Assembly: GCA_022710975.1 (NCBI GenBank)
Contig: JAKLGA010000004.1
Coordinates: 1 to 64,000, forward strand
DNA length: 64,000 nt
Source of the DNA: Myxococcota bacterium
GTDB taxonomy: Bacteria; Myxococcota; B64-G9
Direction: 5' to 3'
The translations under genes and the position numbers were made by a program. Below, one piece after another: positions 7,904-60,526 of this stretch (positions within the stretch are counted from its first letter, which is position 1; each line of letters opens with the position of its first letter). Under the pieces are notes generated by a model. It searched no databases and had not been told where the DNA came from. It saw only the letters and a program-made list of their open reading frames with translations.

Positions 7904-7996
7904 TCACTTCCTGCTCAACAGCCTCACCACCAGCACCGCCACCGCCTGCAGCGCGGCGCCCAGCGCGATCTCCCAGCCTTCATCCTGCCGGCTCAT
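7904..7996 (-). CDS. 30-aa hydrophobic miniprotein, last gene of leftward operon
   Basis: An ATG at 7996 follows a strong GAGGAGG Shine-Dalgarno with good spacing. It encodes MSRQDEGWEIA followed by about 15 small hydrophobic residues and a basic end (R-L-L-S-R-K), compatible with one short membrane or amphipathic helix. It lies 26 bp after the ViaA-like gene in the same direction. It is not recognised. The strong ribosome binding site is the main argument that it is real. Confidence 0.45.
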   Translation of the reverse strand: MSRQDEGWEIALGAALQAVAVLVVRLLSRK

Positions 7997-8022
7997 TCGT
8001 CCTCCTCTCTTCGGCTTGGGTT

Positions 8023-9444: not shown

Positions 9445-9460
9445 GGTCCACCCCCCTGGC

Positions 9461-10621: not shown

Positions 10622-10739
10622 GGTCTTGTCCTTTCTGGAGTGAGCACCCCACGCAGCCGGAGACGGCCGAGTGCAGTGCCTCAAGGTTTGGGGGTCGAAC
10701 GAAGAACGGTGAGGACCGTGGGCCAGTGGGTCGCGGAAT

Positions 10740-11630
10740 CTACTTCGTCACGCGTATCGTACGCCAGCGTAGGGCACCCTTTCTCGGGATAGTCAGGACG
10801 CCGAAGGATGGAATCGCGCCGTCCATGCCGCCGGTCCTACCCATCATGTACGCCCGCGTGCTCTTCCCGACACGCCAGTTCCAGGGATCCCCACCGTTGG
10901 TGTGGATGTGCCCGCACAGAATCGCATCGAGGCCCACACCATCGGCGAGTCGGACGAGGCTCTTGAAGTCCGCAGAGGGGAACCCGAAGGAGATCTTCTG
11001 GTCGGCGCGAACCCTTCGCGCCTGCGTGATCAGGTTCTCTTCTTCGCCCTCGTCGGGCGGGTGATGGATGGCCAGAACTCGCCGCTGACAAGCATCAGCA
11101 AGGCCTCGGCGGACTGCTGCATCATCGGCCTTTCGCCAGTAGCCGATCGTCGAAGTCCAGGTGCTGTAGGACGTCGTGTCTGCGCCGACAAGGGTGACGT
11201 CGCCCAGGTCCTTCCGGAACGGGAACCTGTCGCCCTTTGCGAGGAGGTCATCTGCGTCGAGGAGATCATCGATCCAGTGGCAGAACATCTCGTAGTGGCG
11301 CTGGGCGCGGCGGCCGAGAGCCTTGAGAACTCGCCTGACCTTCCCCCACTCGGAGGACCGGCCTGCGAGGTGGAAAACGTCGTGGTTTCCGATCACGATG
11401 CTCAGGCGATCGCGGTGCCAGAGACCGAGCTTGCGTAGTGCCTGGCTCACCTTCTCCCGGTCGCGCACCATGACGCTGGCACCATCGAAGATGTCGCCGC
11501 AGATAACCACGTGATCGGCCTTGGTCTTGGCGGCGAGAGCGAACGCGCGTTTGGCAAGGTCCCAGGATGCCGGATGGTCCTTGAGGTCAACGTGCAGGTC
11601 GGAGAGTACAGCGAGCGTTGTGGCCTGCAT
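10740..11630 (-). CDS. Calcineurin-like metallophosphoesterase
   Basis: All five metal-binding blocks are visible: D-L-H (residues 11-13), G-D-I-F-D (45-49), G-N-H-D (81-84), H-H (189-190) and G-H-I-H (240-243). The protein therefore probably has a two-metal phosphoesterase site, acting on nucleic acids or nucleotides. Length (296 aa) fits a single-domain enzyme. It is encoded between the DUF6744-like gene and the RavA-like ATPase in the same direction. Substrate cannot be read from the sequence. SbcD/Mre11-like nucleases share these blocks, and the recombination setting makes a DNA substrate plausible, but there is no SbcC-like partner. Confidence 0.85.
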   Translation of the reverse strand: MQATTLAVLSDLHVDLKDHPASWDLAKRAFALAAKTKADHVVICGDIFDGASVMVRDREKVSQALRKLGLWHRDRLSIVIGNHDVFHLAGRSSEWGKVRRVLKALGRRAQRHYEMFCHWIDDLLDADDLLAKGDRFPFRKDLGDVTLVGADTTSYSTWTSTIGYWRKADDAAVRRGLADACQRRVLAIHHPPDEGEEENLITQARRVRADQKISFGFPSADFKSLVRLADGVGLDAILCGHIHTNGGDPWNWRVGKSTRAYMMGRTGGMDGAIPSFGVLTIPRKGALRWRTIRVTK

Positions 11631-11712
11631 GAGGGAGCCTCCAGAAGGTCTTTCAATGACCGCATGGGCAGGAGCAGCTTGTCAAAGCTCGGTGCTCCAT
11701 CAGGTTGCTGAG

Positions 11713-12630
11713 TCAAGTGGTGGTCGCGGTCTGCACCGGGTCGATTCGGGTGCGGGTGATGAAGCCATTGACGGCCCGGTGGACGACCGTCTGCAGGCGG
11801 ACGTCCAGGAGCCCCTGGACCTTGGCCTCCAGGGACGCCAGGACCGCCTGGGCGTTCTCGACGCCGACGCCGAGTGCGTCGCGGTACAGCGTCGCCCGCT
11901 CCCGGAGGCGCTGGTAGGTCTCCAGCCGCCGGGTGAACGTGGACGGTTTCTCCTTGCCGTCGAACGCCTCGGCCTCCGCCTGGAGCTGCTCGAGCTGGTC
12001 GGCCAGGCTGTCCGAGACGACCTCGTGGACGATGGTCCGGACCTCCGGCTCGAGCTCGCACAGCACCAGGTCGATCCCGACCTGACCGAGGAGCTCGCCG
12101 AGCTTGCGGATGTCCGCCAGCCGCTGGGGCGGAACCCAGTAGACCCTGCCGTCCTCGCGGACCCTGGCCGCGTCGTGGGCCTCCAGAAAGCCGCTGACGC
12201 TGCCCGACCAGTCCTCGGCCACGACCTTGCCTCGCAGCCCCGCGTAGGCCTGGGCGACCTCCTGGGCCACGATGTGGCTGCCCTGGACGACAGCCGGGTC
12301 GGGCTCGGCCGTCCAGCGGACCAGATCGAGCTGCTCGTGGTCGACCCGCTCGGTCAGGGAGTCCTTGCGCTCCCGGACGACTGCGTAGAGCACTTCCGAA
12401 GCCGTCCTGCGAAGGGGGCGGAGCAGGAAGCCCCGGCGCTGGAGGCCCCGTTCGGTCTGGGTGATGGCCCTGCCGATGGCCGCGCGGTCGCCGGCGTAGG
12501 CCGGGACGATGCCGGGGTCGAACCCGGCGGCCTTGGCCATGGCCCGGAGCTCCTCGGGCTCCTTGGGCTGGACGCCCTTGGCGCGGGTGAAGACAAAGGC
12601 GCCGGAGGCGAACTTCTTCTCCTTCATCAT
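11713..12630 (-). CDS. DUF6744-like protein, 305 aa
   Basis: A soluble helical protein with a central R-V-Y-W-V-P-P-Q-R motif (about residues 165-173) and long coiled-coil-prone helices from 200 to 275. The YWVP motif and layout recall DUF6744 or DUF3150 proteins found with MoxR and VWA genes on phages and integrative elements. The assignment is from memory of these families and is tentative. Its ATG overlaps the stop of the upstream 87-aa gene by 4 bp (ATGA), which shows coupling. Confidence 0.55.
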   Translation of the reverse strand: MMKEKKFASGAFVFTRAKGVQPKEPEELRAMAKAAGFDPGIVPAYAGDRAAIGRAITQTERGLQRRGFLLRPLRRTASEVLYAVVRERKDSLTERVDHEQLDLVRWTAEPDPAVVQGSHIVAQEVAQAYAGLRGKVVAEDWSGSVSGFLEAHDAARVREDGRVYWVPPQRLADIRKLGELLGQVGIDLVLCELEPEVRTIVHEVVSDSLADQLEQLQAEAEAFDGKEKPSTFTRRLETYQRLRERATLYRDALGVGVENAQAVLASLEAKVQGLLDVRLQTVVHRAVNGFITRTRIDPVQTATTT

Positions 12631-12890
12631 CGTGGGTCTCCTTTTTTGGCCTGGAACGAGAGGTAGGCCCAGGTCTCGTGTTCACGCTCCAGGATGTCGT
12701 TCTGGAGCAGTTTGGCCTCGGCCGGCTGCAGCTTCCTGAGGATCAGGAGGTCGCTGCCGGGGAAGCGCTCGAGGAGGTCTTCGAGGATCTGCTTGAGGGG
12801 CGGAACGCCCTCGGAGTCGTCGAGCGTGAAGTTCTCGATGACGTGGGGCTCCCCGTCCACCCAGCAGAAGGGTGAACCGGTGGTCTTCAT
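12627..12890 (-). CDS. Small hypothetical protein, 87 aa
   Basis: The ATG at 12890 starts M-K-T-T-G-S-P-F-C-W and is preceded by AAAGGGACATC. An upstream in-frame ATG lacks a ribosome binding site. The product is acidic with an amphipathic helix pair and no cysteine motif or membrane segment. It is translationally coupled (ATGA) to the DUF6744-like gene. No family is recognised. Confidence 0.6.
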   Translation of the reverse strand: MKTTGSPFCWVDGEPHVIENFTLDDSEGVPPLKQILEDLLERFPGSDLLILRKLQPAEAKLLQNDILEREHETWAYLSFQAKKGDPR

Positions 12891-13038
12891 GGTGATGTCC
12901 CTTTCGTTACGTGTGGGTAGGTCGGCACAGAGGGGCGCCACAGGGCCTGAAGGAGTATCGAGGGTTCGTGTCACCCCCCATTTGCTTGTTGCTGGTAAGC
13001 CCCAGGGCTATGCTTCTGGAGTACGGGAGGTCGCGGTA

Positions 13039-13281
13039 ATGGCCAGGGAGCAAGTCGAGGGGGAATTCGGGAACTCGTCGGCGGTAAGGGCGACGATCAT
13101 CCTCCAGATTGAGGCAGAGGACTTCCCTGGTGCCTGGGCGCAGGTGCTCAAATACATGCAGAGATTCCACGGGGTGAAAGACGAGGAGATCAAGTGCTTG
13201 AAGAAGACACGGGACTCGCGAGGCTCCTGGTGGATCGAGGTGGAACACCCCGCTTGGAGTGGTGACCTGATCGACTTCTAG
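13039..13281 (+). CDS. Small hypothetical protein, 80 aa, on the opposite strand
   Basis: An ATG at 13039 follows GGGAGGTCGCGG. The product alternates charged and hydrophobic residues with two Trp-rich beta-like segments at the end (S-W-W-I-E-V-E-H-P). Its stop overlaps the stop of the zinc-ribbon gene by 4 bp, tail to tail. It interrupts the otherwise leftward operon, so it is either an independent small gene or chance. Codon composition and the ribosome binding site favour a gene. Confidence 0.4.
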   Translation: MAREQVEGEFGNSSAVRATIILQIEAEDFPGAWAQVLKYMQRFHGVKDEEIKCLKKTRDSRGSWWIEVEHPAWSGDLIDF

Positions 13282-13478
13282 GTGTTCTCCGGCGTCTCAA
13301 CGCTCTCGACGCCTGTCAGCGTGTACACGTCGTGCCAGACCGCCTCGCACTTCAGGCATGTCACTTCCTGGGATGCCTCGCCGGCGCTGATGTCGACCGG
13401 GCCGCCCTCGATGTCGTCCCCATGGCAGAACGGACAGAACAGGCCGCCCGAGGCCAGGTAGCTCGCCTTGTGCTTCAT
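13278..13478 (-). CDS. Zinc-ribbon miniprotein, 66 aa
   Basis: Two CxxC pairs, C-P-F-C near residue 15 and C-L-K-C near residue 41, with about 25 residues between them, form a typical zinc ribbon. The C-terminal tail is acidic. It is encoded 13 bp after the sliding-clamp gene in the same direction. Such ribbons bind nucleic acid or act as adaptors. Its role here is unknown. Confidence 0.6.
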   Translation of the reverse strand: MKHKASYLASGGLFCPFCHGDDIEGGPVDISAGEASQEVTCLKCEAVWHDVYTLTGVESVETPENT

Positions 13479-13491
13479 GGTGAGCCTCGGG

Positions 13492-14562
13492 TCACAGCCT
13501 GACCGGCATGATCACGACCAGCCGGTTCCCCGGCAGGTCGATGCGGACCGGGTCGATGGCGTCGCCGAAGCCCAGGCGGACGGTCTCGTCCGCGCTGCCC
13601 AGGGCCTCGAGCAGGTAGGCCGGATTCAGGCCGGTCACCAGGTCCGGACCGATGTGCGAGTTCTCGAGCGTCTGGATGACCGCCACGGCCTGGTTGGCGT
13701 CGTGGTCCTGGATGGCCAGCGTGAGGCTACCGTTCAGCGTGACCCGGAGGTTGGCCTTGGGCGCCAGCCGCCTCAGGCGCTGCAGCTCCCGCCGGATGGG
13801 GGCAGTCGGCAGCAGGATGACGGAGGTGGCCTCGTTGGCGCCAGGGACGACCTGGGTGTAGTGCGGGTAGGTTCCGTCCATCTCCTTGGACATGAGCACC
13901 CAGTTGCCGCCCTCGAAGCGGCACCAGCCCTCGGCGCGGGCCAGGCACACCGGGCCATCGGAGGCGAGCTGGGCCAGGATGCTGGCTGCGGCGCCGGGCA
14001 GGAGGAGCGACTTGGGCAGCTTGGGCTCCAGGGCGTGCCAGTGCAACCGGTGCCCGTCGGTCGCGACCAGTCTCCCGGAATCGAAGTAGACGCCGCCCAG
14101 GTGCGGCCTGGTCTTGTCGTAGGAGATCGCGGGCAGCACGAAGTCGAGCGACTTCCGGAGCAGGTCACCGTCCCAGATCACGCACGGCTTGAAGTCCCCC
14201 GGAGCCAACGGCGAGCTGGGGTACTCGACCGGGTCGTAGCAGGCCACCCGGGACTCGGCGCCAGCCACCTCGATGCGGACCTGCTTGTCGCTGATGGAGT
14301 CGATGGCGACGAAGCCAGTCTTGCGGCTGGACTCCGGCTTGACCAGGTCGCGGGCCAGCTTGACCGGCAGGCAGGCCGTGAGCTCGCCCTCGGCGGGCAG
14401 ACGGAAGGTCAGACGGGTCTCGAGGTCGGTGCTGGTCAGCGTGGCCAGGCCGTTCCGGACCTCGATCAGCACCATGGTCAGGACGGTCAGGGCGTGCTTG
14501 ATGGGCACCACTCGGGTGAGCTCCTTCAAGGCCTCGTACAGCGGGCGTTGGGCGACTTTCAT
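13492..14562 (-). CDS. DNA polymerase III beta-type sliding clamp, element-borne
   Basis: 356 aa, close to the usual 366-380 aa of DnaN. The three-domain clamp pattern is seen: an N-terminal M-K-V-A-Q-R-P-L-Y-E-A-L start, a middle domain with the conserved V-A-T-D-G-H-R-L block, and a C-terminal hydrophobic end N-R-L-V-V-I-M-P-V-R-L as in the DnaN tail. The ATG overlaps the stop of the upstream gene (ATGA) and follows GGAGGAG. Clamps encircle DNA and tether polymerases, nucleases or MutS. Here it sits between recombination and AAA+ genes, not next to dnaA, recF or gyrB. It is therefore a second, accessory clamp. Confidence 0.85.
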   Translation of the reverse strand: MKVAQRPLYEALKELTRVVPIKHALTVLTMVLIEVRNGLATLTSTDLETRLTFRLPAEGELTACLPVKLARDLVKPESSRKTGFVAIDSISDKQVRIEVAGAESRVACYDPVEYPSSPLAPGDFKPCVIWDGDLLRKSLDFVLPAISYDKTRPHLGGVYFDSGRLVATDGHRLHWHALEPKLPKSLLLPGAAASILAQLASDGPVCLARAEGWCRFEGGNWVLMSKEMDGTYPHYTQVVPGANEATSVILLPTAPIRRELQRLRRLAPKANLRVTLNGSLTLAIQDHDANQAVAVIQTLENSHIGPDLVTGLNPAYLLEALGSADETVRLGFGDAIDPVRIDLPGNRLVVIMPVRL

Positions 14563-14960
14563 GGATTTTTCTCCTCCTCCGCTGCGCTCGTTGCCGCAGC
14601 GGGCTTGCTGGCGTTCTTCTTCTTCGGCTTGGACACGATGAACTCGGCGTAGCAGGCCTCGCCCCGGAAGTGCTGCTCGTACGGCAACTCCTCGAGGTAG
14701 GTGGCAGCCACCTCGACCTCGCAGAAGACGCCGTGAGCTGCCCAGACGGCCTGGGCGACGCGGTCGGCGAACTCTTCTTCGCTCTCGCCGCCGCACAGGT
14801 TCCCGGAGCCGGACGCCGTCAGGATGTTCGCGCTCTCCAGGCACTGGAAGTACCAGCCGTCGAACCCGGGCCACTCCTGCTCGGCGGCTCGCTGAACCTG
14901 CTTGCGCTTCCTGGACTCGACACCGCGGACGGTGATGGCCATGTCGTAGGCGCGGCTCAT
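14559..14960 (-). CDS. Hypothetical protein, 133 aa
   Basis: The ATG at 14960 overlaps the stop of the upstream gene and the stop overlaps the clamp ATG, so it is tightly embedded in the operon. The middle is acidic and Trp/Phe-rich. The C-terminus is a disordered Lys/Ala tail ending near a K-P-K-K-K stretch. It might be a clamp or DNA-binding accessory, but no family is recognised. Confidence 0.6.
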   Translation of the reverse strand: MSRAYDMAITVRGVESRKRKQVQRAAEQEWPGFDGWYFQCLESANILTASGSGNLCGGESEEEFADRVAQAVWAAHGVFCEVEVAATYLEELPYEQHFRGEACYAEFIVSKPKKKNASKPAAATSAAEEEKNP

Positions 14961-15502
14961 GCCATTGCCCTCTTCCTGGCCAGCTTCTTCGGCAGGGCCT
15001 GCTGCTTGGCCGCCTCGAACTTATTGCTCTGCTCATCGATGAAGTCCCAGGTCGTCTTCCACTCGATGCCCTTGGCCGTCACGAACACGGCACCACCGCC
15101 GAACTCGCCGACGCGCATCCTCGAGCAGGTGCCTGCCCAGGACAGGCCGAAGCAAGCGTCGGGGCGGAAGCGCACCAGGAAGCGCCTGATGATGCCGGCC
15201 AGGTACTCGAGGTTGGCGCTCTCGTCGGCGTAGAGCCAGGCCTCGGTGCCGCCGTTGACCGTCTTCTGGATCGCGAACTCGAACCCCGGCCAGCAGTCGA
15301 ACAGGTCCACGAAGCGGGCGCTCCCGTCCAGGTCGGTGATGCCGCGATCGTTGAACCAGCGCTTGGCGAAAGCCTCTTGCTGGTCCCTGTTGGTCATGTC
15401 GTTCGGGAACGGCGGGCCGTGGAGCTCCGCCTTGAGCCAGTCGACCTCTTCGGAGGTGAGGTTCCGTAGCGCTTCCGAGAACTGAACAAAGTTGTCGGCC
15501 AT
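14957..15502 (-). CDS. Hypothetical protein, 181 aa
   Basis: The start is decided by an excellent GGGAGGTGAAGCC ribosome binding site. The protein is rich in Trp, Phe and Asp with a globular alpha/beta look and ends in a basic helix (P-K-K-L-A-R-K-R-A). No known motif was found. It is coupled by 4-bp overlap to the 133-aa gene, so the two probably work together. Confidence 0.6.
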   Translation of the reverse strand: MADNFVQFSEALRNLTSEEVDWLKAELHGPPFPNDMTNRDQQEAFAKRWFNDRGITDLDGSARFVDLFDCWPGFEFAIQKTVNGGTEAWLYADESANLEYLAGIIRRFLVRFRPDACFGLSWAGTCSRMRVGEFGGGAVFVTAKGIEWKTTWDFIDEQSNKFEAAKQQALPKKLARKRAMA

Positions 15503-15506
15503 GGCT

Positions 15507-15596
15507 TCACCTCCCGGTGATCCAGCCAGCCAGCAGGACGAAGGCGACCTTGCCGGCCAGGTGGAGCAGGCCGAGCAGCAGGCGGACGAGCTTCAT
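15507..15596 (-). CDS. 29-aa membrane-helix miniprotein
   Basis: The frame M-K-L-V-R-L-L-L-G-L-L-H-L-A continues with G-K-V-A-F-V-L-L-A-G-W, a near-continuous hydrophobic helix long enough to cross a membrane. It fills the space between the nuclease gene and the 181-aa gene, ending 4 bp before the latter's ATG. The end of this frame supplies the ribosome binding site of the next gene. Coding status is inferred from position and composition. The upstream ribosome binding site is weak. Confidence 0.4.
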   Translation of the reverse strand: MKLVRLLLGLLHLAGKVAFVLLAGWITGR

Positions 15597-15638
15597 CTTC
15601 ACTGGGAACCTCGCTTTCTGAGATGGGTTGTGGTGGCT

Positions 15639-16451
15639 TCAGCCGGCCAGACAGGGCCCGGCGAAGACGCAAGACCTGCACTGCCAGCCCTTGATCGGGT
15701 AGAACGCGCCGGCGTCGACGGCCTTGAGGACCCCGCAGGCGACGCGCAGGAAGTCGCGCTGGTCCTGGTCGCTGCGGGTCAGCTTGTGGATGGCCATGGC
15801 CGGGGCCTTGGTCTTCAGCAAGACCTGGAGCTGGACGGATGCGTCGCCGAGGCCCATCGACGGCGCGGCCAGCGTGTACGCCGTGACCTGGTTGTCGTTG
15901 GCCAAGCGGTCCTCGGCCCAGCGCTTGCCGGCCGTCTTGTGCTCGATGATCACGTACTGGCCGTTCTCCTCCCGGGCCACCACGTCGAACGCGCCCACCA
16001 GCTTGACTGGCGGAACTTCCCCGGTCTCGGGGTCGTGAATCTCGACGGAGAACGGCTCTTCGACGCCGACCACCCGGTAGGGACGAGGGGCGGCTTCGTG
16101 GAAGACCTTGAGCAGGCTGGTGCCGGTCTCGAGCAGGCTGTCTTCGGTCTGGTCGTTGTCCAGCAGCACCGGCGGCGACTCGGCGAAGCTGCGCTTCAGG
16201 GCGGCGCTGAACGCGGCCTGGATGGCCTCCAGGCTGGGCTCGGGCTTCTTGTCGCGGAGCGCGATGTAGAACTGCGCCAGGGCCTCGTGGACAGCTCCAC
16301 CGAAGGCCAGCGGGCCCGGGCGGTGGGTGGGCTTGAGCTGCAGGATGTAGCGGAAGCGGTAGGCGGCCGGGCAGGTCAGGTAGGTCGTCAAAGCCGAGGC
16401 GGAGATGTGCCTCTCGGCCCTGAGCAGCGCCAGGGCAGACGATGCGGTCAT
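15639..16451 (-). CDS. RecB/Cas4-like PD-(D/E)XK nuclease with four-cysteine cluster
   Basis: 270 aa. The RecB-family motifs are complete: H55 in G-G-A-V-H-E-A-L, D156 in G-A-F-D-V-V, E170 and K172 in E-H-K-T-A, and Q188...Y192. One cysteine near the start (C27) and three near the end (C258, C261, C267) match the iron-sulfur cluster arrangement of Cas4 and AddB exonucleases. The protein probably resects DNA ends to give single strands for the Rad52-type annealing protein encoded just upstream. Exonuclease-annealase pairs are standard on phages and integrative elements. No CRISPR array or Cas1/Cas2 is present, so a Cas4 adaptation role is unlikely. Confidence 0.85.
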   Translation of the reverse strand: MTASSALALLRAERHISASALTTYLTCPAAYRFRYILQLKPTHRPGPLAFGGAVHEALAQFYIALRDKKPEPSLEAIQAAFSAALKRSFAESPPVLLDNDQTEDSLLETGTSLLKVFHEAAPRPYRVVGVEEPFSVEIHDPETGEVPPVKLVGAFDVVAREENGQYVIIEHKTAGKRWAEDRLANDNQVTAYTLAAPSMGLGDASVQLQVLLKTKAPAMAIHKLTRSDQDQRDFLRVACGVLKAVDAGAFYPIKGWQCRSCVFAGPCLAG

Positions 16452-16477
16452 GGCTTGGTTCTCCTCGTGGGTTGAGG

Positions 16478-17149
16478 TCAGACGGGGGCGCCGCCCAACT
16501 CATCGCTGAACTCGGAGATCAGCGTCGAGGCGTCGGAGCGGGAGAGGTGCTCGGGCTGGTTCTTGAAGAGCTGGACCGCGCGGTCGCGGATGTCGTCCGC
16601 GGTCATCTGGAGCTTCCTGCCGAGCGACCAGATCGCCGAAAGCTGTTTCTGCGTCAAGCGAGCGCCGTTGCCGCTTGAGCCGGGGCTGGTTTGGACGGTG
16701 CGGGCGTGGGTGCGGCCGTTGCCGTTGCCGCCGTTCTCGTTGCCATCGTTGCCGGAGGCCTTGGGCTGCTTGGCCTCGGGCGCGCTGTCGCTGTACAGAT
16801 ACAGCCCGACGCCCAGCAGGGTCGCCGCCTTCTTGAGCCCGTCGGTCGCGGCGGCCTTGAGATCGTCGGCCAAGGACAGGCGCTCGCCGGTCTCGGAGTG
16901 GACGGTGATGCTCGAGCCGCCAAAGGCCATCTTCGTCACGCTGCCCGCGCTGAGCCTGACGAGGACGACGACCTCGGCGTCGTGGATGGCGTGCTCGACG
17001 ATCTCGAAGCTCCACTCGCCGGCGAACACGTCGATCAGGCGCTTGAGGTACTCGTTGCCTTCCACATACTGAAGCTGCTTGCCGAAGTTGCCCTTGCGGG
17101 TCTTCAGCACGGACGCATCGAACGGGGCCTGCAAGGCAGACGTGTCCAT
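16478..17149 (-). CDS. Rad52/Rad22-type single-strand annealing protein
   Basis: The N-terminal 120 residues carry the Rad52 core: V-L-K-T-R-K-G near residue 14, L-Q-Y-V-E-G, and the strong D-D-L-K-A-A-A-T-D-G-L-K-K-A-A block with G-V-G-L-Y-L-Y at 95-119. A Gly/Asn-rich linker (about 130-150) leads to a helical C-terminal domain with L-T-Q-K-Q-L-S-A-I-W, as seen in other Rad52-like phage proteins. A strong AAGGAGG lies ahead of the ATG. It is the first gene of the leftward operon. It should anneal single strands made by the adjacent nuclease during element recombination. Confidence 0.8.
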   Translation of the reverse strand: MDTSALQAPFDASVLKTRKGNFGKQLQYVEGNEYLKRLIDVFAGEWSFEIVEHAIHDAEVVVLVRLSAGSVTKMAFGGSSITVHSETGERLSLADDLKAAATDGLKKAATLLGVGLYLYSDSAPEAKQPKASGNDGNENGGNGNGRTHARTVQTSPGSSGNGARLTQKQLSAIWSLGRKLQMTADDIRDRAVQLFKNQPEHLSRSDASTLISEFSDELGGAPV

Positions 17150-18298: not shown

Positions 18299-18619
18299 TT
18301 ACGGAGCCAGTAGCCGCAGCGCCTGGATGACGGCCTTTCGCTTCTTTGCCGGCCACTTCTCAAGCAGCTCCTCGAGCTCCTGGGCGAACTGGCCAACGCC
18401 TGAAGCAGTGCGGGCGTCGAGAAGGGCGCCAAGCCGCACATGCAGGGCTGTCGCAAGGCGATCCAGAGCCTCCAGCGAGAGCGACTTCCTGCCGCATTCA
18501 ACTTGTGAGAGATAGGTAGGGTCCAGGTGTACCCGTTCGGCGAGCACGGCTTGGGTGAGGCCGAGCGCCTTGCGATGGCTTTGAATGCGGGCGCCGATTT
18601 CCTTGGAATCGATGGGCAT
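18299..18619 (-). CDS. XRE-family transcriptional regulator, 106 aa
   Basis: An N-terminal helix-turn-helix of the Cro/C1 type covers residues 8-65 (I-x-x-H-R-K-A-L-G-L-T-Q-A-V-L-A-E-R-V...Y-L-S-Q-V-E-C-G-R-K-S-L-S). A short helical C-terminal extension probably dimerises it. It is divergent from the membrane-protein gene at 18.7 kb, with about 110 bp between them, and may control both directions. It is probably an element repressor, but no operator repeat stood out. Confidence 0.8.
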   Translation of the reverse strand: MPIDSKEIGARIQSHRKALGLTQAVLAERVHLDPTYLSQVECGRKSLSLEALDRLATALHVRLGALLDARTASGVGQFAQELEELLEKWPAKKRKAVIQALRLLAP

Positions 18620-19565: not shown

Positions 19566-20159
19566 TTGACTACTTCTGACCCTATCAAAGGCTCTGGCCA
19601 AGGCCGTACGCGTTTATGGGTGCGACTACTTGCACTCGGTGGTGTGTTTGCTCTGGCAGGAGGTGTCTTGCTGTATTTCATGACTTTTCGCGCACAAGAG
19701 GGAGAAGGATACGGAAAAGCAAGTTGGGGAATGACAATCGAAGTGATTCAGCAACTCTATCCGGGAGGAACCCTTCGCGCAGGGCGTGATGGGCCTGAGT
19801 ATACGGTGATCTCCGAGGTTTCTACTCGCCCGGCAATTGTTAGGTTTCTTTGCGATCAGAGGAGTGCACTCCATGGCGTTGTTGTAAACTTTCCTGAAAG
19901 CGACAATTGGACATCTAGCGAAGCGCCAGACAGGTTTTCAGCGGTATTTCGTGGACTGGAAATCAGGTATGGAAAACCAGATACTGAAGTGCTCCAAATG
20001 CGTCTTTGGAATGATATACACGGAAAGACTGCGATTCTTGCAGAATGCCCACCCTACCTTGGGGAGAATATGGGGCGTGAAGAACTTGGTTTGACAAAAT
20101 GCCACATTCTGTATTCGAGTAAGGTGTCATTAGAAGAAAATGTCACGCAGGGACTGTAA
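19566..20159 (+). CDS. Single-pass membrane protein, 197 aa, TTG start
   Basis: The TTG at 19566 is chosen because a strong AAAGGAGGGG precedes it. Residues 17-38 form one membrane helix (L-W-V-R-L-L-A-L-G-G-V-F). The rest is an extracytoplasmic alpha/beta domain of lower GC with no recognised motif. Its last 30 bases overlap the convergent zinc-ribbon gene on the other strand. Confidence 0.55.
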   Translation: MTTSDPIKGSGQGRTRLWVRLLALGGVFALAGGVLLYFMTFRAQEGEGYGKASWGMTIEVIQQLYPGGTLRAGRDGPEYTVISEVSTRPAIVRFLCDQRSALHGVVVNFPESDNWTSSEAPDRFSAVFRGLEIRYGKPDTEVLQMRLWNDIHGKTAILAECPPYLGENMGREELGLTKCHILYSSKVSLEENVTQGL

Positions 20160-20381
20160 TTGGGCATTACCGCTCAGTGGATTAGATTCCTGTGCTTCGT
20201 TCTTGGTGCTTCTCTTGGACGACTGGTGCACTTCAATCCAAACCCATATTGCCTGCCCTAATCGAAGCACCCTGCAGGTCAGCCCACAGGTTGGACAGGC
20301 GAAGAGCAGCACCTGGCCGCCCAGGATGCCTGGCTGGTTGACGATGTGAATTTGAGTTTCGCGGCTATCGGGAAGGAACAC
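20130..20381 (-). CDS. Small CxxC protein, 83 aa, GTG start
   Basis: Contains I-V-N-Q-P-G-I-L-G-G-Q-V-L-L-F-A-C-P-T-C-G. This parallels the segment V-K-K-P-G-V-L-G-G-T-Y-S-L-L-V-C-P-T-C-H of the protein encoded at 20948-21319. The second CxxC of that homologue is missing, so this looks like a divergent or shortened paralogue. It starts 12 bp after the preceding gene stops. A nucleic-acid-binding ribbon is the likely fold. Confidence 0.45.
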   Translation of the reverse strand: MFLPDSRETQIHIVNQPGILGGQVLLFACPTCGLTCRVLRLGQAIWVWIEVHQSSKRSTKNEAQESNPLSGNAQLQSLRDIFF

Positions 20382-20947: not shown

Positions 20948-21319
20948 TTAACGCAATTCGTTTTGCCTCGCCAACGCCCCGCCCCGACGTTGGCGCGCAA
21001 GAACCTGACTTCGGTATTTGAACTTGTAAATCGTTTGAAGGCACTTCACGCATGCAAGGCCAGGGTCGTAATCGATGACACGCAGAATCTTACTTGCGCG
21101 GTGGCACGTTGGGCAAACAAGAAGGGAGTACGTTCCCCCGAGGACTCCCGGCTTCTTCACCAGCTTGACCTCGAGCTCCCGGCCATCTGCAAGAAAAAGC
21201 GTGACACTGTTTGCCGCAGATAGCTTGCGCTTGCCTCCCAGGGTGCGCCTGACATCCTCGATCTTGACGTCCGGAAGGTCTTCGAAGAACTGGCGCTGGC
21301 TGTAGATAGCTGTGCTCAC
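20948..21319 (-). CDS. Zinc-ribbon protein, 123 aa, GTG start
   Basis: The GTG at 21319 overlaps the upstream stop as GTGA, which decides the start. It has C-P-T-C and C-V-K-C pairs spaced by about 20 residues (a zinc ribbon) after a beta-rich N-terminal part, and a basic Arg-rich C-terminus that could contact DNA or RNA. Paralogue of the 83-aa protein encoded at 20130. The family is not named with confidence. Confidence 0.55.
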   Translation of the reverse strand: MSTAIYSQRQFFEDLPDVKIEDVRRTLGGKRKLSAANSVTLFLADGRELEVKLVKKPGVLGGTYSLLVCPTCHRASKILRVIDYDPGLACVKCLQTIYKFKYRSQVLARQRRGGALARQNELR

Positions 21320-21810
21320 CTTGGAACCCCGCCGACTATAACCGCTGTTTGGTTGCTGACGTGGATCGCCGGCGCAGGCGAATCCAACCGCGCAAGGGCC
21401 TCCATAGATGCGAGCATTCGTCGATGCGCAGAACTCACTGCTCGCTCGAGTGCTTTGACCTGTTTCTCGCTCGCAGATCCATGACACACTCTACGAAGCA
21501 GGGATGTGAGTAGCGCTTCGTAGTAGCGTAGAAGCGTCTTCGCCGTCGCCACGTCGCCAGCCAGGATACGACGTGCAGCGGTACCGCGGCCTCCTTGGCG
21601 AGCAAGATCTCTCGCGGTTGATGCGATCTCTGCCTCGTCGTAGGTGAAGATCTCTGGTCTCGCCTTCACGAGCTTTGGATCGATTGCCAGGATAGCGATA
21701 CGATCCAGATTGTCTAGGGCCTCGGAATCAGATACGTCATCGTATACCTCGAGATGATTGTCGGCTTGAGGGCAAATAGGTGGAGACGGTTTGGCAACAG
21801 TTAGCGACAT
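21316..21810 (-). CDS. Hypothetical protein, 164 aa
   Basis: Soluble and mainly helical from residue 50 to 145, ending with an N-Q-T-A-V-I-V-G-G-V-P-R tail of the kind seen in phage-type small proteins. It is coupled to the zinc-ribbon gene by a GTGA overlap. A small-terminase-like layout is possible but no HTH was seen. Confidence 0.5.
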   Translation of the reverse strand: MSLTVAKPSPPICPQADNHLEVYDDVSDSEALDNLDRIAILAIDPKLVKARPEIFTYDEAEIASTARDLARQGGRGTAARRILAGDVATAKTLLRYYEALLTSLLRRVCHGSASEKQVKALERAVSSAHRRMLASMEALARLDSPAPAIHVSNQTAVIVGGVPR

Positions 21811-21834: not shown

Positions 21835-22014
21835 CTATTTGTCAGCAGTAGTTGTAGACACAGACGAGGTCTCTAGTGTTGGGCTCGAAGACGGACCTCT
21901 GGAGTTGCCTTGGTCTCCAACCAGCACGCCAGGCCGGGAGTTACTCCCGGGAGTCGGAGAGCTCCGTGGTTCGACGTTCTCGATCGCGAAAGGTCTGTCG
22001 TTGGGTGTGTTCAT
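21835..22014 (-). CDS. Small low-complexity protein, 59 aa
   Basis: The ATG at 22014 follows GAAGGAAAGGAAC. The sequence is rich in Ser, Thr and Pro and is probably disordered. It is the first gene after the ATGCA-repeat and palindrome region and lies 24 bp ahead of the 164-aa gene. Function unknown. Confidence 0.4.
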   Translation of the reverse strand: MNTPNDRPFAIENVEPRSSPTPGSNSRPGVLVGDQGNSRGPSSSPTLETSSVSTTTADK

Positions 22015-22038
22015 AGCCGTTCCTTTCCTTCGAGGGCT

Positions 22039-22238
22039 ATGCACGGCAGGTGGAAAATCCCCCCCCCATGAATAGCCTCAGTATTCAAGAATTATGCATA
22101 GTTTATGCACTTCGCGATTGTGTAACTCCTCATAAAGAAGAGGGAATACGTTCTACATATGCACCACCGATGCATGTTTCGATGCAGTTGGGCATGGGGC
22201 TATGCAGTATGCCACCCTATATAGGGGGCATACTGCAT
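22039..22238. repeat. Cluster of ATGCA/TGCAT motifs (iteron-like)
   Basis: At least nine ATGCA or TGCAT pentamers occur in 200 bp (for example at 22039, 22094, 22105, 22159, 22170, 22182, 22202 and, inverted, 22171 and 22234). Several are extended as (G)GCTATGCA or TTATGCA. The segment is AT-richer than its surroundings and lacks genes. It lies next to a primase-helicase gene, so an origin with iterons or a multi-site operator are both plausible. Confidence 0.55.
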
Positions 22239-22243
22239 AGCCC
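22197..22243. repeat. 47-bp near-perfect palindrome
   Basis: The left arm begins GGGCTATGCAGTATGCC and the right arm ends GGCATACTGCATAGCCC. The centre is CCC-TATATA-GGG, and one unpaired A at 214 is the only flaw. All other positions from 22197 to 22243 pair. No T-run follows on either side, so it is not a normal terminator. It could extrude a cruciform, bind a dimeric protein or mark an origin. Confidence 0.85.
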
Positions 22244-22328: not shown

Positions 22329-24350
22329 TCATTCTTCTCCATCTTTTAGTGGCCCGAAGTTGGGCTCTTTCGCTTCGTCAAGTTCGCAGGAATCATCCAG
22401 TATTTCTGGTGAATCACTTTTCAGCAGTTTTCCAAGGCTGTTTGCCTTCTTGAGTTGACGCGATATCTTCGACTGGCTCACTCCGAGAATTTCTCCGATC
22501 TTAGTCTGGGGATATCCCTGTTCTTTGAGATGATATATCTTACGCAGTTGGTCAACTGCAGGCAATGAAACATCCCAGTGAGATTTCGTGCAGTTTGTCG
22601 CATCAGTGACAAGGTGAGCCTGGAAGGTCTGGGCGTCATCGCCGAGAATGCCCCTCGCCTTGGTAAATTGGACGTCGAATCGGGCTCCCTGTCCGAAGAC
22701 ATAGTCATTCGGCTTTTTCAGAGCGATGCAGACATCCATCTGATCCTCGCGGCGCGAGGTTCCTCGTTGGTCCCCACTCTTGCCTTCATGGTGTACGAGT
22801 TCTACAGCGAGCCCATCTTTGCGGAGATGGCGGAGCCAAGCCTGAAAACCCTCATTCGAATCGCCTTCGTTTTCAATTAGGCCGCTTGACAATGTCGAGA
22901 GAGAATCAAAGATCACAACGTCTGCCCGATGGGCGTGGATCATTTCATCAACGAGCGTTTGGCCTTCTGGCGTGCCGATATTTGGCATTTCATCAGACGG
23001 TTGGCAGTCATACGCGACAATGCGGAAACGATCTTCCGGTTCACATGTTGGAAATGAGTTAGAAATGACGTTGAGAGCCCCGAGCAGGTAGTGGTGCGGT
23101 AGTTCGCCGTCCAGATACAACACCCTTGCTGGTGAATCTCCCGCGCGCCACCGAAGAAATGGTTGGCCAGTGGCCATTGCCAGGGCCATTCCTAGGTTGA
23201 ACATTGTTTTACCGACTCCACGCCAGGCGACCACCATCATCAGCATCGCAGAGCAAAGAACTGGATCAAGGAATACCCGTCGCTTGGGCACGACAAGGCT
23301 ACGAAACTCGGTCAGGGTCAGGGCCCTGATCTTGTCAACGTAGAGGCCTGGCGCTGGAGTACCTTCATCCTTGGCCTTTTGATCTGCTTCGAAGGCGGAA
23401 TTTGCCTGCGCGAGCAGTACTTCCTTGGTCAGCCCGGTCGCACACCAGTCCCTCAGGTCCTTCAAGCCCTCAGGCGGGAACAGCGTGATCACCTCGAACT
23501 TGGCTGCCGTCAGCGCGGCGTGAAGCTTTTCGGCCGACTTCTTGCCCGCCTCGTCGGCGTCGCCCACGACCACCACGCGTTCGGGCTTCCGGAGTAGGCA
23601 CACTGACACGACCAAATCGGTGCAGTTGCCGGCGCCGGGGATGCCGATGGCGGCCATGCCTAGGGAGAGGGCTGCCGCCGTGTCGCTTCCGCCCTCGCAG
23701 ATCAGAAGAAGGTCGAGCTTGGTGCCGAGATTGTCTGGAATTGTCAGCCCACGCTTACCTCCAGGCACCTGCTCGAAGCGCTTCGCGCCAGAAACAATTG
23801 GCTGCAGCGGCCGGAGAGTGATCGCGGTAACGCAATTGCCTCGGCGCTCTGGCCAAGTGGAGAACTTGTCCTTGGTGCCAACGCCAAGGTGTTCAAGCAT
23901 CGTGGTCTTGACCCCGAGATCTGTGGCTAACCGGTTGCGAACCTTCCCGGCGTTTTCATGGTGAAAGTACTGGTCAGCAAGTCCTCCAAGGTCGGGTAGG
24001 TTGTCACGTTCCTTCTCGGTAGGGGAGACCATCGGTCTGTTTGATGACCCCGCTGAGTGACTCGCCGGCTGATGCGTTTGCTCCGGGCCTGTGCGCTGGC
24101 GAGGTTTTTCTGCTCCGCCCCGAAAACCCGATTTCAGCGTTGCTGTGATTTCGGACTGCGTGAGCCCGATGTCGAGAGCAACTTCTTGGAGCTTACTCCG
24201 TACCTCGGCCTCCTCGAGGTCGCCGGAGTCGAACAGCTGGCTTAGGGCGAAGGCCGATCGGTTTAGGGCAATGTTACGTTCGAATTCTGGGGCTTCCTGC
24301 AGCTTTGCGAGCTCGCTTTGGAGCGCGGATTCTCCGTACCTGGTGGTCAT
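22329..24350 (-). CDS. Toprim primase fused to RecA-like replicative helicase
   Basis: 673 aa. Residues 20-80 are a small helical domain shared with the gene upstream. A Toprim domain follows with E219 in I-C-E-G-G-S-D and D264/D266 in G-D-A-D-E-A-G. A RepA/KaiC-like ATPase comes next with Walker A W-R-G-V-G-K-T at 376-382 and Walker B V-V-I-F-D-S-L-S near 470. A C-terminal HTH (T-K-I-G-E-I-L-G-V-S-Q-S-K-I-S-R) ends the protein. This is a typical phage or plasmid primase-helicase. Its ATG overlaps the stop of the HTH gene upstream (ATGA). It should start replication of the element, with the repeat-rich region downstream as candidate origin. Confidence 0.85.
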   Translation of the reverse strand: MTTRYGESALQSELAKLQEAPEFERNIALNRSAFALSQLFDSGDLEEAEVRSKLQEVALDIGLTQSEITATLKSGFRGGAEKPRQRTGPEQTHQPASHSAGSSNRPMVSPTEKERDNLPDLGGLADQYFHHENAGKVRNRLATDLGVKTTMLEHLGVGTKDKFSTWPERRGNCVTAITLRPLQPIVSGAKRFEQVPGGKRGLTIPDNLGTKLDLLLICEGGSDTAAALSLGMAAIGIPGAGNCTDLVVSVCLLRKPERVVVVGDADEAGKKSAEKLHAALTAAKFEVITLFPPEGLKDLRDWCATGLTKEVLLAQANSAFEADQKAKDEGTPAPGLYVDKIRALTLTEFRSLVVPKRRVFLDPVLCSAMLMMVVAWRGVGKTMFNLGMALAMATGQPFLRWRAGDSPARVLYLDGELPHHYLLGALNVISNSFPTCEPEDRFRIVAYDCQPSDEMPNIGTPEGQTLVDEMIHAHRADVVIFDSLSTLSSGLIENEGDSNEGFQAWLRHLRKDGLAVELVHHEGKSGDQRGTSRREDQMDVCIALKKPNDYVFGQGARFDVQFTKARGILGDDAQTFQAHLVTDATNCTKSHWDVSLPAVDQLRKIYHLKEQGYPQTKIGEILGVSQSKISRQLKKANSLGKLLKSDSPEILDDSCELDEAKEPNFGPLKDGEE

Positions 24351-24883
24351 GGCTGCTTCCGATGTCCGCTGGTCTTTGGCGTGCCATCGGGCTTTCCAGA
24401 AGTGTCAGGGCTCGCTTGCTCGCAGCCAGCCTTCATCCACGATTTCACCGCCGCCATGACTTCGGCTCTGCCAATTCCAGTGGCAATGCCAGCGTCGATG
24501 AGGGCATTTCGGACTTCTTTCACGTTGAGTGCGCCTCGGCCAACCAGGACGCCGAGAGAGAACGCGGCACGGTTGAGCGTTGTGTTCCTCTCGCCCTCTC
24601 GGGACTTTCGAATCTTGCCGAGCTCTTTCTTGAAGATGACCTTGGCAGGCGCGGCTTCCAGAACGTGTCCTTTTGGATTTGGTGGACTGCTGCCATTGGC
24701 CGTGGAGGTGCTGCGCCTCTCGAATTCCTCGACAGCCGCCTTGGAGATCCGAATCGTTCGTCCGAAGCGCGTTGTTGGTAGACGTCCGTCCTGAATCATG
24801 TGGCGAATGAGGCTGGCACTGACTCCCCAGCGGGACGCGGTTTCGCTAATAGTCAAGTGTGTTCGGTCTTCTGGATTATTCAT
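24347..24883 (-). CDS. Excisionase-like HTH protein with replication-associated domain
   Basis: The ATG at 24883 is preferred over 24886 because AAGGAG is then properly spaced. Residues 8-60 are an excisionase/MerR-like winged helix (L-T-I-S-E-T-A-S-R-W-G-V-S...R-F-G-R-T-I-R-I-S). Residues 95-160 (E-R-N-T-T-L-N-R-A-A-F-S-L-G...E-V-M-A-A-V-K-S) match the N-terminal domain of the primase-helicase that follows, so the domain was duplicated. It probably binds the origin or att region and regulates replication or excision. No integrase gene lies in the window. Confidence 0.7.
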   Translation of the reverse strand: MNNPEDRTHLTISETASRWGVSASLIRHMIQDGRLPTTRFGRTIRISKAAVEEFERRSTSTANGSSPPNPKGHVLEAAPAKVIFKKELGKIRKSREGERNTTLNRAAFSLGVLVGRGALNVKEVRNALIDAGIATGIGRAEVMAAVKSWMKAGCEQASPDTSGKPDGTPKTSGHRKQP

Positions 24884-29539: not shown

Positions 29540-31099
29540 ATGTTATCTCGAATAGCCTTCGTTGCATTCATCGGTACTCTACTTCTATCATTCTCTGCTT
29601 CTAGCCAGTCAGGCGAATCCATTCAGATCGGCAACAGCAGCTATAATCTTGAGGATTCCTTCTACCTCTATGAACTTCAGTCGGTCCATGCGCTTGGATT
29701 TGCAGAATGGTTCCCTACCTACAAATTTGAGATCTACGGAGCTCATTCGCCGACCGCTAGCCCAGGGGAGATCGCTTTTGGCAACCATGCAACGTCTGTT
29801 ACTTCGGGCACAGTACTTGGAAGAATACTGTTTCTTACTCAAGATTCTTCGGTCGGAGCAAAAGGTCTCGTTGCGTCAATTCAAGCCATTGCTTCCGGGG
29901 AGCATTCTACCACCTTTCATCGTTCTGATCTTGTATTCTACACATCGAATGAGGTAGACGAATTTGGTATCGAAAACATGCGATTGCACTACGATGGCAA
30001 CTTGTCAATTGGGACATCGACTCATTTCGCCTACAGACTCTATATCAGTGATGAGTTCCGCGCCAATGGCATCAGAACGGAATATGCCTCAATTCCCAAT
30101 TATGTTGGAGGTGCTGTTGGCAACACCTTTACTTCAGGTAACTATGGCGTGGTTATTGCTGGAGGTGGTGGCGGAAGCGGTTATGAGCACGAAGTAAATG
30201 GCAACTATGCCACTATTGGAGGTGGATATAGCAATAGCGCAGTAGGCAACTATTCTGTGGTCGCGGGTGGCTACAGCAATTCCTTGGACTCAACAGCCGC
30301 GGTAGTATCTGGCGGAAGTAGCAACGAAATCGCGACTGGCTCAAGCTATGCAGTACTCTCCGGAGGTCTTTCAAATAGCATCGGAAGCAACTCTGATTTC
30401 TCTTTCATTGGTGGCGGTTCGGGTAATCATCTAAGTGGTGATCAAACGCACGAAGTAATAGCAGGTGGTTATGGAAATGGAATGCATGCGGCAGGAGCTT
30501 CGAGTTACAACGTTATAGGGGGAGGATATATCAATTCCATGTCTGGTGCGTTTGGAAGTGTAATTTCTGGAGGAGTTGCTAATACTGCACTTCTAGACAC
30601 TCCCGTTGATACGTCAATTCTTGGCGGATACAATAACGCAATCGAGGCAGACTATACCCTTGCCGCAGGGTATTGGGCAATTGCATCCAATAGTGGTTCG
30701 TTTGTATGGTCGAATTACTATGATGGAAGTGGTATGTGCCAATCTGATACATCGAACCAGTTCAGAGTCTGCGCAACCAGTGGAACCTGGTTTTCTAGTA
30801 ATGTTTCTGCAGCATCATTTACCGATAGAACGCCATTTCCATACGACCTAGAGACTGCCTACAACGCAGTACTGTCGATGCATAGGCTATCAGATGATCA
30901 ATACGATCCGGAGGATATCGGAAGCCAACTCGATCACGAGAGTCTCAGTCATTTTGTAGTTGCCATTGAGCCAGATGGTACAAGTTCGCGTAATCTTTCT
31001 GCAACTGTCTCCGCCCAAAACGAAGTCATAAAGAGTCTGGTCGAACGAGCAATGGCGCTTGAGGCTGAGATTTCCGCACTGAAAGCCAAGGTGCGCTGA
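29540..31099 (+). CDS. Secreted glycine-rich repeat protein A, 519 aa
   Basis: A signal peptide covers residues 1-22 (ending S-A-S-S-Q). The middle (about 190-370) has repeated G-G-G-Y-S-N-S and S-V-V-A-G-G-Y units of the kind seen in YadA-like heads and tail-fibre beta-rolls. The C-terminus has F-T-D-R-T-P-F-P-Y-D-L-E-T-A-Y followed by a coiled coil (residues 490-519), similar in layout to intramolecular-chaperone tails of fibre proteins. It is probably an extracellular, trimeric structural or adhesive protein. RBS AAGGAGG. GC is much lower than most of the window. A paralogue follows at once. Confidence 0.65.
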   Translation: MLSRIAFVAFIGTLLLSFSASSQSGESIQIGNSSYNLEDSFYLYELQSVHALGFAEWFPTYKFEIYGAHSPTASPGEIAFGNHATSVTSGTVLGRILFLTQDSSVGAKGLVASIQAIASGEHSTTFHRSDLVFYTSNEVDEFGIENMRLHYDGNLSIGTSTHFAYRLYISDEFRANGIRTEYASIPNYVGGAVGNTFTSGNYGVVIAGGGGGSGYEHEVNGNYATIGGGYSNSAVGNYSVVAGGYSNSLDSTAAVVSGGSSNEIATGSSYAVLSGGLSNSIGSNSDFSFIGGGSGNHLSGDQTHEVIAGGYGNGMHAAGASSYNVIGGGYINSMSGAFGSVISGGVANTALLDTPVDTSILGGYNNAIEADYTLAAGYWAIASNSGSFVWSNYYDGSGMCQSDTSNQFRVCATSGTWFSSNVSAASFTDRTPFPYDLETAYNAVLSMHRLSDDQYDPEDIGSQLDHESLSHFVVAIEPDGTSSRNLSATVSAQNEVIKSLVERAMALEAEISALKAKVR

Positions 31100-31166
31100 T
31101 GTTGTCAATAGAACACGGGATTCATCACTTGCGACACGCCACTGTTTCCTACTAAGGAGGCATTCA

Positions 31167-32717
31167 ATGTATTCTCGCTTATCCATTGTGGTCCTGTTCT
31201 CTTGCATGCTTCTACCAGCAGCTGTACTTGGACAAACAGGCAAGTACATCCAGGTCGGTGATAATGGTGACAGCCTTCAGGATTCGTTCTGGCTTTTTGA
31301 GTTGCAATCCACTCATGCAATAGGTTTTGCAGAACTGCTACCAACCTACAAATTTGAAATCTACGGAGCTTGGTCGCCTACCAGTAGTCCAGGAGAAATT
31401 GCGTTTGGAAACCATTCAAGCGCTGTCACTACTGGTACAGTACTTGGTAGGTTGCTATTTCTCAGTCGAGATACCTCAGCAGGAGCAGAAGGTCTTGTTG
31501 CAGCGATCGAAGCAGTTGCATCTGGTGAACATTCAACAACGTATCATAGAACCGATCTCGTCTTCAAGACATCCAATGAGGTAGAAGACTTTGGCATCGA
31601 GAACATGAGACTGCACTATGATGGCAACCTGACCATTGGAACATCGACACATTACAATTACAAGCTCTTTGTCAATGGCGAATTCAGAGCCAATGGCATA
31701 AGAACGGAATCTGCGTCGGTTCCCAACGTCATCGGAGGTGCGGCCGGTAACTCGTTCACATCTGGGAACTATGGAGTAGTTATCGGGGGAGGAGGAGCCG
31801 GAAGTGGCTACGAGCATACAGTGAATGGCAATTATGCAGCTATTGGTGGAGGATACAGTAATGATCTGGTAGGAAGTTACTCAGTTGTAGCGGGTGGTTA
31901 CTCAAACTCTCTGGACTCTGTCGCTGCGGTAATTTCTGGAGGGTATAGCAATGTAATCGCGACAGGTTCGAGTTATGCAGTGATTTCGGGAGGTATTTCG
32001 AACGAAATTGGTAGCAATTCGGACTACTCCTTTATTGGTGGAGGACAAGACAATTACCTCTATAGTGACTTGAACTACGAAGTAATTGGCGGCGGACGAG
32101 AGAATGGAATGACAGCTCAAGGAACGTCGTCCTATAATGTAATCGGAGGCGGTTACTCCAACTACATGACAGGAAGCTTCGGCAATGTGATTGCTGGTGG
32201 AATCGATAACTACACATTTGGATCCTATTCGGTGATTCCTGGTGGTTACCAGAATAGCACATTGGATAACTACACTTTCGCTGCTGGCTATCGCGCCGAG
32301 GCAGATGAGGAGGGATCATTCGTATGGTCAAGCTACAACGGTGGGAGTGGAACTTGCTCATCGGATGCCGAAAACCAATTCAAGGTGTGCGCAGTCGGGG
32401 GCGCCTGGTTTTCCAACAATGTATCGGCTGCTTCTTTTACCGATAGAACTCCATATCCATATGATCTAGAAACTGCCTACAGCGCAGTATTGTCAATGCG
32501 AAGGCTGCCAGATGGCCAGTACAATCCAGATGATATGGGAAGTCAGCTTGACCATGAAAGCCTTCATCCATTCGTTACCTCTGTTGAGGCAGATGGCACA
32601 AAATCCAGGAACCTTTCTGCCACCGTTTCTGCACAAAATGAGGTCATTAAGAGCCTAATTGAACGCGTAACTGTGCTGGAATTGGAGGTCACGGCGATCA
32701 AGGCCAAAGTACGTTGA
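31167..32717 (+). CDS. Secreted glycine-rich repeat protein B, 516 aa, paralogue of A
   Basis: The same layout as the preceding gene: signal peptide, beta domain, repeats such as I-G-G-G-Y-S-N and V-V-A-G-G-Y-S-N-S-L-D-S, the F-T-D-R-T-P-Y-P-Y-D-L-E-T-A-Y block and a C-terminal coiled coil. Identity to A is high along the whole length, so this is a tandem duplication. Divergence is strongest in the last repeats and near the coil. Start supported by TAAGGAGG. The two may form hetero- or homo-oligomers on the cell surface. Confidence 0.65.
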   Translation: MYSRLSIVVLFSCMLLPAAVLGQTGKYIQVGDNGDSLQDSFWLFELQSTHAIGFAELLPTYKFEIYGAWSPTSSPGEIAFGNHSSAVTTGTVLGRLLFLSRDTSAGAEGLVAAIEAVASGEHSTTYHRTDLVFKTSNEVEDFGIENMRLHYDGNLTIGTSTHYNYKLFVNGEFRANGIRTESASVPNVIGGAAGNSFTSGNYGVVIGGGGAGSGYEHTVNGNYAAIGGGYSNDLVGSYSVVAGGYSNSLDSVAAVISGGYSNVIATGSSYAVISGGISNEIGSNSDYSFIGGGQDNYLYSDLNYEVIGGGRENGMTAQGTSSYNVIGGGYSNYMTGSFGNVIAGGIDNYTFGSYSVIPGGYQNSTLDNYTFAAGYRAEADEEGSFVWSSYNGGSGTCSSDAENQFKVCAVGGAWFSNNVSAASFTDRTPYPYDLETAYSAVLSMRRLPDGQYNPDDMGSQLDHESLHPFVTSVEADGTKSRNLSATVSAQNEVIKSLIERVTVLELEVTAIKAKVR

Positions 32718-39110: not shown

Positions 39111-39311
39111 ATGAGTGCGATGGTATCCCCCAGACCACAAACCCACTTCCCTAAGATCGACTCCGATCTGAACTTCCGCCTCTGGGCTGGGGTTCTGCGT
39201 CACCGGTTGGTGCCCGAAAGGCGCGTCCAGCAGGTCGACGTGAAGCGGAGCAACCGCGAGAAGATGGCAGCAGCCGCGCTTGCCCAGCACGCGCGAGTGA
39301 GGACAGCATGA
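39111..39311 (+). CDS. Small basic protein, 66 aa, upstream of DUF3631 gene
   Basis: The ATG at 39111 follows AAGGAGGCGTGCG and the stop overlaps the next ATG (ATGA). The product has a central W-A-G-V-L-R-H-R-L-V-P-E-R-R-V and a basic C-terminal helix. It is probably an accessory of the replication gene. No family is recognised. Confidence 0.55.
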   Translation: MSAMVSPRPQTHFPKIDSDLNFRLWAGVLRHRLVPERRVQQVDVKRSNREKMAAAALAQHARVRTA

Positions 39312-55651: not shown

Positions 55652-55656
55652 GCGCC

Positions 55657-60491: not shown

Positions 60492-60526
60492 GCATCAGCC
60501 GGCCAGTAGTGAGCCGGAGACATTGA

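Follow-up and report, generated by a model that had tools for sequence, protein, structure and literature searches.

Positions 22034-22243 of the window analysed here, the whole stretch of 64 kb, are probably the replication origin of a mobile element, with iterons that would be bound by the element's own primase-helicase through its C-terminal helix-turn-helix (HTH). Short words phased on the helix and a palindrome are placed directly behind the helicase gene, and this pattern recurs across the helicase family. The origin reading is the best supported one because iterons and a converging palindrome 3' of the helicase gene recur in most relatives, and because the proven origins of SaPI and PICI elements are organised in this way; the possible origin proposed in the initial annotation thus gains support from sequence comparison. 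The site consists of the following unstranded features:

22034-22043: outer iteron GGGCTATGCA, inverted with respect to the last 10 bp of the palindrome (repeat search)
22094-22109: iteron set B, made up of ATGCAT at 22094 and, 11 bp on, ATGCA at 22105
22110-22158: iteron-free spacer of about 50 bp between sets A and B, 50% AT
22159-22186: iteron set A, ATGCA at 22159, 22170 and 22182, 11-12 bp apart
22197-22243: palindrome whose arms each have two converging TATGC words (TATGCAGTATGCC) and flank CCCTATATAGGG; it folds as a 20-bp stem and has a layout shared with relatives

Seven copies of ATGCA start at 22039, 22094, 22105, 22159, 22170, 22182 and 22202, and TGCAT is found at 22095, 22171 and 22234. 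Since ATGCAT scores twice, these ten word matches represent eight separate sites; nine or more motifs had first been reported. The window holds no denser ATGCA cluster than that at 22039-22243, and the maximum per 201-bp span was only 2-6 over 25 kb of simulated sequence. In the 350 bp 3' of the helicase stop the word count was 10, while 2000 dinucleotide shuffles gave a mean of 1.41 and a maximum of 9, none of them reaching 10; the same 350 bp contain six copies of TATGCA (p = 2.8e-8). The spacings between direct ATGCA copies (55, 11, 54, 11, 12 and 20 bp) fall into one helical phase of 10.9 bp, with p about 2e-4 when the period was scanned. Both iterons of set B resemble DnaA boxes with one mismatch each (TTATGCATA, TTATGCACT), and the set lies in the 60-bp stretch from 22082 that has the highest AT content of the gap (67%).

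The palindrome at 22197-22243 has the arms GGGCTATGCAGTATGCC and GGCATACTGCATAGCCC and the inner sequence CCCTATATAGGG, with a centre of the short form CTATATAG. Described at the outset as a near-perfect palindrome of 47 bp, it is a perfect 46-bp palindrome with one A inserted at 22214, and in a one-mismatch scan its arms were the longest of the window. The arms do share the repeat word, as had been noticed: GCTATGCA occurs at both 22036 and 22199, and TGCATAGC at 22234. Inverted 10-bp ends at 22034 and 22243 would also suit a small MITE-like insertion with GGGCTATGCA as terminal inverted repeats. Such an insertion, or repeats arisen by chance, is hardly credible: the palindrome is a single copy in the 7.1-Mb genome, at odds with a MITE or other repeat family, 194 other genomes of the phylum lack the sequence, no target-site duplication was seen, and chance is opposed by the simulation and shuffle statistics and by the recurrence across the family.

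Words and palindrome lie in a gap that is non-coding and adjoins the primase-helicase gene, just as the initial annotation had it. The helicase reading frame stops at 22329; on the minus strand the next likely gene, preceded by a good ribosome-binding site, begins at 22014. The palindrome begins 85 bp past the helicase stop codon, and read as RNA it would give a strong 20-bp stem 86 nt past the stop on the coding strand, as expected of a terminator or an mRNA stabiliser acting after the primase-helicase. We consider this very improbable, since no T-run follows, the terminator scan made no call, Rfam returned no match, and an RNA stem leaves unexplained both the phased direct copies outside it and the CTA/TAG centre common to the family; an intrinsic terminator and a known RNA were rejected accordingly. 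GC-skew analysis, suggested earlier as a check, gave no clear change at the site and is confounded by the co-oriented genes.

The genes next to the site are:

24347-24883, minus strand: HTH_17 (excisionase-like) protein, its C-terminal domain related to the primase N-terminus, in an operon shared with the primase-helicase
22329-24350, minus strand: primase-helicase of 673 aa with Toprim (215-300), AAA_25 RepA-like helicase (355-527) and C-terminal HTH (Pfam, AlphaFold model, Foldseek)
22437-22562, minus strand: the primase-helicase's C-terminal HTH (approximately residues 597-638), modelled as three helices and weakly matched by Sigma70_r4 at 606-636 (Pfam)
21316-21810, minus strand: function-unassigned gene downstream of the putative origin, with a 46% identical homologue in a sister element on contig C1

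All element genes near the site are on the minus strand, the operon of the HTH_17 protein and the primase-helicase lies upstream of the repeats and palindrome, and the window is AT-richer between about 18.5 and 25 kb. The Toprim and Walker motifs of the primase-helicase appear intact. The AlphaFold model of its helicase half (mean pLDDT 86) shows three C-terminal helices and matched RSF1010 RepA (1g8y) in Foldseek with a TM of 0.76 on the target; RadA and KaiC also match. No close copy of the protein was found elsewhere in the host phylum. Small putative zinc proteins (CPTC...CxxC) with the common motif RPGVLGG-LFACPTCGR are encoded at 20130-20381, 20948-21325 and L037:13603-13941, the copy at 20130 having the appearance of a truncated duplicate.

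Other parts of the window hold a tandem pair of similar surface-type proteins (29540-32717; 519 and 516 aa) in which GGG/SNS-rich blocks are repeated and the first of which had no Pfam match, and a DUF3631 protein (39308-40873), of a family often found beside phage or plasmid primases, which suggests a second element remnant. A large defence island at 47655-63981 encodes a DruE-like (Druantia) DEAD/MZB helicase, a methyltransferase of DrmMI/type IIG-like kind (55657-59670) and a PLD protein resembling ZacB/DrmC; no single named system accounts for this combination.

Relatives were collected by similarity of the helicase protein alone, without regard to the DNA behind the gene. No helicase relatives came from protein scans with a single sequence. 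Nine loci were found with an alignment of two rows, the helicase end and a fragment from a Nitrobacter plasmid, and a ten-row alignment then gave 72 loci from viral contigs. That fragment (L053:8037-8486, Nitrobacter plasmid 2) is 150 aa long, 43-60% identical to relatives, and has a CBASS locus on one side and a restriction-type locus on the other; it is likely the relic of an inserted element. Nearly all of the first nine loci, which include an 11-kb element with a tyrosine integrase, a Toprim protein, the helicase and a phage capsid (L085), have, right behind the helicase stop, a short word that forms converging tandem pairs and occurs in additional copies. This word is TGTCCC in L085, L086, L089, L090 and L091, TTGCG in L087 and GAAAC in L092 and L093; across the family every element has a word of its own (GTTGCG, TGGGACA, TGAATCA; TATGCA in the window). 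Many have in common with the window a layout of two converging copies, a CCTNAGG- or CTATAG-like centre, two diverging copies and direct copies about 11 bp apart.

This regularity was measured over the 350 bp that follow the helicase stop in a non-redundant set of 55 loci, which are still related by descent beyond the duplicates removed and so are not fully independent. The top 6-mer ranked above all control windows of the same contig, which were mostly coding, in 38 of the 55 loci (2.57 expected) and in 29 of 46 when the nine discovery loci were left out. It reached p < 1e-8 in 28 of 55 loci against 6 of 1231 control windows, and beat all 200 dinucleotide shuffles in 33 of 55. For the best inverted repeat behind the stop, 25 of 67 loci exceeded all controls, against 2.65 expected. 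Distances between words on the same strand have maxima at 8-9, 11-12 and 22-23 bp, the period for the family as a whole is 11.0-11.1 bp, and a CTA/TAG core occurs in 20 of 33 spacers between converging words (6.8 expected), as CCTAGG, CCTTAGG, CTATAC or, here, CCCTATATAGGG. Seventeen of the 55 relatives have no clear array, and the window's own array is among the shorter ones of the family. L111, L115, L116, L119 and L136 have very regular iteron arrays, with as many as 13 copies at intervals of about 11 bp and with stretches rich in AT; they are better experimental models than the window.

The words might instead be operator sites of the HTH_17 protein, of another HTH protein of the element (18299-18619) or of an autorepressing helicase HTH, controlling the genes at 22014 and 21810 with the palindrome as a double operator. 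The position 5' of minus-strand genes and the HTH proteins encoded in the element agree with this, and iteron origins often double as operators. We nevertheless regard a regulatory role as unlikely, given that the relevant strand has just one good sigma-70-like promoter (21845-21817), which lies away from the words, that the arrays follow the helicase gene even in relatives with different downstream genes, and that up to 16 copies over 300 bp exceed the needs of an ordinary operator.

Under the origin reading, the words are likely read by the C-terminal HTH of the helicase, and not by the separate HTH protein at 24347-24883 that the initial annotation had named as the binder, because of a presence-absence association and the SaPI precedent. 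A C-terminal extension of at least 60 aa was present on the helicase in 32 of 32 loci with strong arrays versus 11 of 17 without arrays (Fisher p 9e-4). Word and HTH also covary (Mantel r 0.36, p 2e-4), but with the partial Mantel test r fell to 0.16 (p 0.003), and to 0.03 without the closest pairs. Covariation thus mostly tracks ancestry and does not single out the HTH as the reader, and it was not counted as proof.

A sister element on contig C1 was reached through conserved neighbour modules (MoxR-vWA-Rad52-PDDEXK), although those modules did not lead to the origin. It is 88-89% identical to 8-18.7 kb of the window's element (vWA, MoxR, SbcD-like phosphatase, DnaN, PD-(D/E)XK nuclease, Rad52). 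Its helicase, found by profile search, is a Prim-Pol/AAA_25 protein (L036:15299-17320, minus strand), and the palindrome TGGTTGGTCTGCACCCCTTAAGGGGGGGTGCAGACCTACCA with the centre CCCTTAAGGGG lies 24 bp past the stop of this gene. This palindrome had been listed before its helicase context was known and was unmatched in 61 control windows; no word enrichment was found around it. Among relatives in the host phylum, tandem-word palindromes follow the stop at a distance of 0-31 bp in L172, L173 and L179, and no such palindrome was present behind the stop in L169, L174 and L177. No DNA-level relatives of the 22034-22243 region were found in plasmids and phages, and no exact copy of the dyad in viral contigs; the word changes between elements. 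Absence of the motif from sister elements, which had been offered as a refutation, is therefore too strict a measure: the layout stays but the word does not.

DUF6744, a MoxR ATPase, a vWA protein, Rad52 and a PD-(D/E)XK nuclease form a module (7912-17149 and relatives L039-L052) that recurs across many host-phylum families, often without DnaN or primase. Beside the C1 sister (L037:14902-20000 and L038:1-5400; G000:C1 about 834.9-845.4 kb) lie Csb1/Csb2-like genes and genes for a Cas3-like helicase and an apparent Cas4-Cas1 fusion, and after these comes a CRISPR-like repeat array.

The different primases of these elements bear on a further reading, in which the primase reads the hairpin as a single-strand initiation site like ssiA/ssiB of RSF1010, or a partition or recombination protein binds the iterons as a centromere or resolution site. 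RSF1010 uses palindromic ssi sites and the helicase resembles its RepA, and short phased repeats occur in centromeres too. Yet the same layout is kept with Toprim here and in L085 and with Prim-Pol in the C1 sister, neither ParA nor ParB was found among the element genes scanned, and the genome has no telomere resolvase, so that we hold this group of roles to be quite improbable. A telomere of a linear plasmid or phage (TelN site) was likewise rejected, there being no ResT-TelK_cat match in the genome.

Known replicons provide precedents for an origin at this place. SaPI Rep recognises iterons directly downstream of its own gene via its C-terminal domain (PMC7581432), and a cloned rep-ori of a Gram-negative PICI drives autonomous replication (PMC6092414). 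The rep-ori of SaPIbov1 and EcCICFT073 shares with the site an origin directly 3' of the initiator helicase gene, multiple short element-private iterons in sets split by a spacer, and a C-terminal DNA-binding domain on the helicase, putative here (PMC6092414, PMC7581432). SaPI Rep proteins differ in having DUF927 or D5/Primase_Cterm helicases (PMC7581432), whereas the helicase here is AAA_25/RSF1010-RepA-like with a fused Toprim; the primases of SaPIbov1 and SaPI5 are AEPs, and many members of the window's family add a converging-word palindrome with a CCTNAGG-like centre. Where a PICI has an AT-rich spacer, the spacer of about 50 bp here is 50% AT and the most AT-rich 60 bp (67%) overlap set B. 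PICIs further have an AlpA or Stl/Rpr regulator and phage-dependent induction; an HTH_17 protein is encoded in the element (Pfam). No integrase is encoded within the window, at whose first base the contig starts; the nearest on the same contig is at C24:92885, and that of the C1 sister is at C1:812614. We take the site to work probably like a PICI origin but do not class the element as a PICI, because its helicase is of another family and the window, with which the contig begins, contained no integrase.

SCCmec Cch2 is alike in its 5-nt iterons and in the repeats, both direct and inverted, that follow the helicase gene, and its isolated C-terminal domain binds the putative origin; it is unlike the present case in its D5-type helicase, in having only three iterons and in inverted repeats that are dispensable for binding (PMC7581432). 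The RepA fold of the helicase domain, by model, is that of RSF1010 RepA, which is a hexamer. In RSF1010 a separate RepC reads 20-bp iterons and RepB' reads the ssi palindromes; here, by contrast, the HTH is fused to the helicase and the words are 5-7 bp, and the consensus around the 5-6 bp word revealed no extended identity of the kind expected for RSF1010-like 20-bp iterons in the window. The alpha protein of phage P4 is also a primase-helicase with a C-terminal origin-binding domain, acting on ori/crr. In sequence, P4 alpha differs from PICI Pri-Rep proteins (PMC6092414).

From this analysis we infer HTH binding, melting, self-loading and origin activity in the following way. The C-terminal HTH of the primase-helicase would read the ATGCA/TATGC words as iterons, about 11 bp apart on one face of the helix, and the converging pairs of the palindrome together with the direct copies on one side would gather several helicase subunits. 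An AT-richer stretch between the iteron sets would then melt, possibly, by analogy with PICI origins, the spacer at 22110-22158, though it is 50% AT here. The RepA-like ring may load itself onto the opened DNA, where the fused Toprim domain would prime.

Beyond this element, the chances are about even that the family forms a large, previously unrecognised class of self-loading replicons, common to temperate phages, small capsid-carrying elements and chromosomal elements of several bacterial phyla. Its members would combine RSF1010-RepA-type helicases and an exchangeable C-terminal HTH with a private 5-7 bp word, set directly behind the gene in an iteron array with a converging-word palindrome of CCTNAGG-like centre, and word and HTH would co-evolve as an incompatibility code. 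No description of arrays behind AAA_25 helicases was found in the limited set of literature searched, and the regularity of the arrays across the family may itself be new. Origins would become predictable from sequence in many phages, satellites and integrated elements as the most enriched 6-mer behind an AAA_25 helicase gene, and a layout of SaPI/PICI type on a different helicase family would mean either spread or repeated emergence of this layout. Private words paired with variable C-terminal HTHs would make the evolution of origin specificity readily testable, and may yield small replicons for hosts with few plasmid tools.
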